A DNA stretch of 64,000 nt from Altererythrobacter ishigakiensis (GTDB taxonomy: Bacteria > Pseudomonadota > Alphaproteobacteria > Sphingomonadales > Sphingomonadaceae): NCBI RefSeq assembly GCF_001663155.1, contig NZ_CP015963.1:2194001-2258000 (forward strand), written 5' to 3'. Positions 18,986 through 19,211 of the stretch are shown piece after piece. The notes under the pieces are model-generated. The model ran no database searches. It was not told where the DNA came from and saw only the letters and a program-made list of their open reading frames with translations. Numbering within the stretch: the stretch's first letter is position 1; every line of letters begins with the position of its first letter. The position numbers and the translations under genes are program-made.

Positions 18986-19028
18986 ATTTCACCCCTCATT
19001 TCAGACCCGACGCGCACGCCAAGCAAAG

Positions 19029-19037
19029 TTATCCACA
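19029..19037 (+). promoter_or_regulatory. DnaA box in the ccrM leader
   Basis: TTATCCACA, a perfect match to the consensus DnaA box, lies 44-52 bases upstream of the ccrM start codon. DnaA acts as a transcription factor for cell-cycle genes in Caulobacter. A role here is inference from position. Confidence 0.5.
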
Positions 19038-19085
19038 GGGTGAGTCCCTTTGGACTCTGGGTCAAGCACAAAGAGATAAGCGGTT

Positions 19086-19104
19086 ATGGTTAATTCTGCG
19101 TTAG
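19086..19104 (-). promoter_or_regulatory. CtrA-like binding site upstream of ccrM
   Basis: Read on the minus strand, this is CTAA-N7-TTAACCAT. The CtrA consensus is TTAA-N7-TTAA, often extended to TTAACCAT; there is one mismatch, in the first half. It lies about 100-120 bases upstream of ccrM, which is a known CtrA target in Caulobacter. Confidence 0.5.
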
Positions 19105-19134
19105 CTATCACGGAACAAAAAGAGTCCCGCACAA

Positions 19135-19171
19135 GATATTGAGTCTGATGGCTTTTAGAGGACTCAATATC
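19135..19171. repeat. Inverted repeat with GANTC in both arms
   Basis: Arms GATATTGAGTC (19135-19145) and GACTCAATATC (19161-19171) are perfect complements over 11 bp with a 15-base spacer. Each arm holds one GANTC. No T-run follows on either strand, so it does not look like an intrinsic terminator for the antiporter gene upstream. Confidence 0.6.
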
Positions 19172-19211
19172 GTGGTGTGTTGCGTGGAAGACTCAATTCT
19201 CAGATTGTTTG

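Follow-up and report, generated by a model that had tools for sequence, protein, structure and literature searches.

The leader of the Caulobacter ccrM gene is usually described with two GANTC sites. Methylation control of ccrM itself has already been proposed in that bacterium, where the gene is described as being activated by CtrA only from hemimethylated DNA (PMC2217572) and as "most probably" controlled by methylation (PMC3973325), and the array that we describe below would be a variant of such control. GcrA is reported to bind methylated GANTC, to sense which of the two strands is methylated and to interact with RNA polymerase (PMC3667746), and Caulobacter start sites with a GANTC between the -35 and -10 elements are described as one timing class (PMC4287350); the determinants of GcrA binding and action are stated to be unclear (PMC7987155). 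For A. tumefaciens, a gcrA promoter that carries six GANTC within 250 bp is reported to be less active when methylated (PMC11514494). An earlier survey, according to the account found, predicted a control of ccrM by DnaA mainly for species in which this gene is not preceded by CtrA sites, and inferred nothing from the numbers of GANTC (PMC2877005). Methylation of adenines in GANTC (m6A) has been reported in Sphingomonas sp. AAP5 (PMC8067484).

The locus considered here belongs to a 64-kb stretch of DNA (the window, meaning the whole stretch that was analyzed). Its ccrM gene (17849..18985, minus strand) encodes a predicted GANTC adenine methyltransferase of the CcrM family with N6_N4_Mtase and RAMA domains, both of which score over their Pfam cut-offs (222.7 versus 26.7 bits and 76.4 versus 35.2 bits, respectively). 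The best NCBIfam model for this product is NF050803 (CcrM), with 609.6 bits; since this is under the cut-off of 830 and since the model is named for Caulobacter, we label the protein a CcrM-family ortholog and not an NCBIfam equivalog. A ccrM gene was detected in 197 of 199 genomes of the family. The entire array lies in the 226-bp gap (18986..19211, minus strand) that leads from a Na/Ca exchanger gene (19212-20138, minus strand) to ccrM; rnhB (20166-20876) and folP (16733-17848), also on the minus strand, are the other neighbors. The exchanger gene thereby sits between rnhB and ccrM, as it does in some relatives: of 104 loci, 70 have rnhB as the nearest gene detected upstream of ccrM, 27 have the exchanger and 7 have neither of the two. 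Two side observations concern the coding sequences: the ccrM products of the family start with about 20 residues (18890-18985 in the window) that are unaligned in most matches from outside, which mostly begin at query residue 10-30, an N-terminal extension being possible; and an ORF at 15516-16790 has a weak match to a PhoD alkaline phosphatase (35.7 bits versus a cut-off of 1000).

The gap was compared with its counterparts in 80 named contigs, chosen as the best among 590 confirmed ones, in 29 anonymous loci and in the locus itself. These gave 111 regions including the window, from which five repeats (the copy from the own genome and four identical pairs) were removed, leaving 106 distinct 250-bp regions; start codons were set by rule, and positions relative to them may be some codons off. 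We take the family thus compared to be the Sphingomonadaceae in the broad sense, because the named relatives belong to Erythrobacter, Qipengyuania, Novosphingobium, Sphingomonas, Sphingopyxis and similar genera.

Six GANTC sites span 153 bp (19042-19194) ahead of ccrM, at the positions given by the first-pass annotation, and every one of them is GAGTC or GACTC (on the plus strand, GAGTC at 19042, GACTC at 19053, GAGTC at 19122 and 19141, and GACTC at 19161 and 19190); elsewhere in the window, GAATC or GATTC accounts for 74 of the 96 remaining sites. The 64-kb window holds 102 GANTC versus 299 in dinucleotide shuffles, an approximately threefold depletion, and such a depletion has been reported for genomes with CcrM. 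The cluster was improbable under each of the controls tried, and chance was rejected as its source: the 96 remaining sites predict 0.34 GANTC per 226 bp, random throws of 102 sites on 64 kb placed six of them within 153 bp in only 15 of 20,000 trials, and 5,000 shuffles of the 226-bp region gave a mean of 1.1 sites, with six or more in 0.02%.

The first-pass annotation had proposed counting GANTC in orthologous ccrM promoters, and had named a lack of conservation in close relatives, beforehand, as one outcome that would refute its reading. Its reading withstood this check: the array recurs in 106 of 106 family regions, with a mean of 6.16 GANTC per 250 bp (range 2-10) versus a background of 0.31 in the rest of the loci, and 560 of the 653 sites of these regions are GAGTC or GACTC. 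The same annotation had also set six sites against the two of Caulobacter; the six are there, but the contrast is misleading, as the ccrM upstream regions of other Alphaproteobacteria have about four to five per 250 bp. We counted 4.1 at 29 loci of the class (one of which, L124, belongs to the family itself; the 28 others are the best-scoring of 105 matching genomes out of 142 searched and not a random draw) and 5.2 at 16 loci from other families of the order; outside the family, the middle bases are mixed.

Judged from their distribution among these genomes, two of the six sites are an old, class-wide core and the other four are a feature of the lineage. The core stands next to a putative -35-like element, TTGACC (19060..19065, minus strand): a proximal GANTC (GAGTC on the minus strand, 19053..19057) lies at +8 from TTGAC and a distal one (GACTC on the minus strand, 19042..19046) at +19. 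In 102 of the 106 family regions, CTTGAC[CG] was located between 40 and 110 bp ahead of the start codon; 82 of these 102 relatives have a GANTC at +19 from the first T of TTGAC, and positions +8 and +9 together account for 78 occurrences. A strict core pattern, defined as TTGAC-N1-6-GANTC-N4-8-GANTC, was present in 80/106 family regions and in 29/44 loci outside the family (17/28 loci from other families of the class and 12/16 from other families of the order), and absent in the 26 and 15 others. In 500 block shuffles with unchanged counts of GANTC and TTGAC words, the pattern arose in a mean of 0.5 and a maximum of 3 out of these 44, compared with the 29 observed, and a relaxed pattern returned no further case in 163 kb of the 44 non-family loci. 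The core pair thus appears to be fixed relative to TTGAC and common across the class. It is a separate observation that several of the ccrM upstream regions from other families of the order (L245-L260) share another conserved stretch, with a GATTC about 20-30 bp upstream of TTGAC, one example being aacttactGATTC.

TTGAC would then be the -35 element of the ccrM promoter. A possible -10 element, CACCCT (19037..19042, minus strand), was placed by spacing only, 17 bp after the -35-like hexamer; it fits the -10 consensus poorly and is kept in relatives at 80% identity or more. A consensus promoter scan found no promoter in the ccrM upstream region.

The four other sites form an element of about 84 bp (19111..19194, minus strand) that we call the quartet. 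Read on the minus strand, it consists of GAGTC at 19190..19194 (site 1), GAGTC at 19161..19165 (site 2), GACTC at 19141..19145 (site 3) and GACTC at 19122..19126 (site 4), and the middle base of each is nearly invariant wherever the site is kept in the family: G in 97/97 and 84/85 cases for the first two, C in 92/94 and 54/58 for the last two. When the best placement of four sites was scored in each of the 106 regions, the spacing of 29, 20 and 19 bp was exact in 54, and a further 27 deviated by a single base in one gap. All four sites were intact in 42 regions, three in 41, two in 21 and one in 2, so that 23 regions keep two or fewer. The methylase takes any middle base, yet the middle bases are fixed, which suggests a reader with a preference of its own. 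An alignment of 63 regions, drawn from the 87 of 106 above a score threshold and therefore biased to well-kept copies, revealed that other bases in the intervals are fixed as well, whereas the loop that separates site 2 from site 3 is variable; a variable loop beside fixed bases serves as an internal control against mere relatedness. The quartet is probably not coding sequence, its three spacings not all being multiples of three.

A sequence-only profile built from this alignment (R1) matched the window at 19112-19194 (E 6.4e-19). At E < 1e-8, a match was obtained for 23 of the 25 genomes searched in the genus (the own genome included) and for none of the 16 from other families. At E <= 0.01, it found 61 of 147 genomes of the order, 60 of which belong to the own family; at least four family genomes were without a match among those listed, and 66 further matchless genomes were not itemized by family. 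Outside the family there was a single match (G380, E 0.009); it is located some 220 bp upstream of that genome's ccrM and may be a diverged quartet. For the 36 of the 60 family matches that had ccrM coordinates, all 36 lie on the same strand as the ccrM match and 101-371 bp upstream of it. Weaker matches on the opposite strand overlap the same, near-palindromic place, and the profile also gave some matches at E > 0.03. There is otherwise one strong place per genome, with the exceptions of G220 (at contig ends of a fragmented assembly) and G014 (a weak second match, E 0.004), and the quartet was therefore rejected as an operator shared by several cell-cycle genes. On these counts, the quartet seems nearly confined to the family that we read as the Sphingomonadaceae, where it persists before ccrM whichever gene is the nearest one detected upstream.

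The first-pass annotation had reported two boxes in the same region, one a perfect match to the DnaA box and the other CtrA-like. The DnaA box TTATCCACA is indeed found on the plus strand at 19029..19037 and corresponds to TGTGGATAA on the minus strand. It follows the first T of TTGAC by 28 bp and there overlies the expected start site. Taken alone, it is not beyond chance: it is the sole exact copy in the window, and 18 of 100 shuffles held at least one. The same is true of the CtrA-like box CTAACGCAGAATTAACCAT (19086..19104, minus strand), whose TTAACCAT half starts 28 bp upstream of TTGAC; TTAA-N7-TTAA, with one mismatch allowed, occurs at 3 places in the window versus 5.0 expected. Both boxes are lifted above chance because they are conserved in place. 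Of the 102 relatives, 48, which is under half, have a DnaA box at +28 from TTGAC, and 73 of 106 family regions have one anywhere in the 250 bp; the same pattern gave 1 of 28 class loci outside the family (L140). For the CtrA-like box, what is conserved is one half: TTAAC[CG]AT is found in 51/106 regions, mostly 27-29 or 38-39 bp upstream of TTGAC, and 67/102 have TTAAC in the 50 bp that precede the -35-like element, compared with 2/606 background stretches (0.33%). The annotation was right about the presence of the box, but the CTAA half is rarely kept in the family, the complete [CT]TAA-N7-TTAA occurring in just 9/106. DnaA and CtrA-like boxes are found together in this window.

We also looked at other cell-cycle genes of the family, using best-scoring draws of loci. 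Upstream regions of gcrA had a mean of 0.43 GANTC (30 regions of 31 loci), those of ftsZ 1.43 (30 regions; GAATC or GATTC in 38/43 sites) and those of ctrA 1.40 (30 regions; GAGTC or GACTC in 33/42 sites). The core spacing of ccrM was not found before the ctrA or ftsZ genes of the family (30 regions each), which also speaks against an operator shared by several cell-cycle genes. As a side observation, methylation sites seem to form two classes by promoter, ctrA having mostly GACTC and ftsZ having GAATC or GATTC.

Considering the sites, their order and their conservation together, the reading that we favor, with somewhat better than even confidence, is that ccrM has a promoter which responds to methylation and limits itself, with a GANTC-binding factor as its reader and with DnaA and CtrA as its gates. 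The reader would most likely be GcrA, whose gene is present in the own genome and in 59 of 59 family genomes. The promoter would be of the sigma-70 type, with TTGAC at -35, two GANTC in the spacer between -35 and -10 and the rigid four-site array upstream. GcrA, together with RNA polymerase, would sense the change from full methylation to hemimethylation once the replication fork has passed; transcription of ccrM would be favored in the hemimethylated state and would drop after CcrM has re-methylated its own promoter. CtrA, bound at the TTAACCAT half-site just upstream, may aid activation, and DnaA bound over the start site may keep ccrM off early. The proposal of the first-pass annotation, that the gene could read replication as well as its own methylation, is plausible. 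Against the favored reading stand the loss of the strict core or of quartet sites in some regions and the fact that under half of the relatives have the DnaA box at +28. It is further weakened by the poor -10 element, by the empty consensus scan and by a poor fit to YGAKTCK, an extended GcrA motif put forward for Caulobacter, which matches just 166/651 family ccrM sites versus 22/42 ctrA sites; B. subvibrioides is reported to have no YGAKTCK preference either (PMC7987155).

A possible but rather unlikely alternative is that the quartet is an operator for a regulator other than GcrA, whether a factor dedicated to ccrM, MucR or CcrM itself, which would recognize oriented GAGTCY together with the conserved blocks between the sites, binding and methylation competing with each other. 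The constraint on the middle and following bases (471/651 ccrM sites read GAGTCY, though the methylase accepts any middle base), the invariant bases between quartet sites and the single strong place in all but a few genomes are all consistent with it. A MucR-family protein is moreover present in 56 of 59 family genomes, and in Caulobacter and Sinorhizobium, MucR is reported to protect GANTC sites against CcrM (PMC5172544). The ctrA upstream regions, however, share the preference for GAGTC or GACTC, which counts against a reader private to ccrM, and the core pair spans the class without the quartet.

Less probable still, in our estimate, is that the array works as a sister-symmetric sensor of hemimethylation, possibly through an undescribed factor serving this one genomic place. 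After replication, a strand-specific reader of oriented GAGTC would give a different response on each sister chromosome, and the three convergent pairs (outer, inner and core) would offer each sister an equal number of correctly oriented hemimethylated sites. The orientations are more balanced than a binomial expectation (mean |G-C| of 0.83 versus 1.81), but this balance is no proof, because the relatives do not count as independent cases and a single layout, once inherited, accounts for it. If the array did act in this way, both copies of ccrM would switch together, unlike ctrA, whose upstream sites (L215-L244) are mostly in one orientation (27 GACTC versus 6 GAGTC).

An inverted repeat (19132..19174, assigned to neither strand) with 14-nt arms that are 93% complementary surrounds quartet sites 2 and 3, and could in principle act as RNA, as a hairpin, an attenuator or the terminator of the upstream gene; we consider this very improbable. 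On either strand, the repeat of the window does fold better than its shuffles (z of -3.6 and -4.1), a T-rich stretch comes after the quartet there, and covariation is weakly detected at one flanking pair (P 0.014). Among the relatives, however, compensatory changes were seen at 0 of 5 consensus pairs (covariation term 0.02), the sole covarying pair has C-A mismatches (9) in about the same number as G-U-type pairs (8), and when strands of four relatives were folded, three gave z -1.4 or weaker and one clearly beat shuffles. With covariation lacking and with no Rfam match within 18000-20200, a hairpin or attenuator is disfavored, and so is a terminator, as the quartet stays put when the detected neighbor gene changes. 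That the cluster merely reflects a general intergenic enrichment in CcrM-bearing genomes is hardly credible: GANTC is described as over-represented between genes in Alphaproteobacteria (PMC3973325), but far fewer sites precede the gcrA, ftsZ and ctrA genes of the family, fixed spacing and fixed middle bases are left unexplained, and the quartet spacing rules it out as a full account.

Returning to the reading of a self-limiting, methylation-responsive promoter, its closest described counterpart is the Caulobacter crescentus ccrM promoter, which we compared by description only: both would be CtrA-activated and methylation-controlled (PMC2217572, PMC3973325), while neither a quartet nor a DnaA box appears in the descriptions found. 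The GcrA-dependent Caulobacter promoters ctrA P1 and mipZ would resemble it by a methylation-sensed GANTC at the -35/-10 region (PMC3667746, PMC4287350); ctrA P1 is described as having one GANTC and mipZ two juxtaposed ones (PMC3667746), compared with the six before the ccrM gene of the window, and the YGAKTCK motif of such promoters is the one that few family ccrM sites fit. The A. tumefaciens gcrA promoter shares a dense GANTC cluster before a gene of the circuit, but that gene is gcrA, which has few GANTC before it in the family studied here, and the account found gives no rule of spacing or orientation (PMC11514494). A literature search, with most subscription papers outside its scope, returned no account of the quartet array or of the TTGAC/+19 core.

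A key issue in the epigenetic control of Alphaproteobacteria is how CcrM stays confined to a brief part of the cell cycle. A class-wide core, made of TTGAC and a GANTC at +19, together with a rigid array proper to one lineage, would provide a defined object for this issue and for the question of what determines GcrA binding and action, and the fixed orientation of these sites offers a direct handle on the use of strand-specific hemimethylation.
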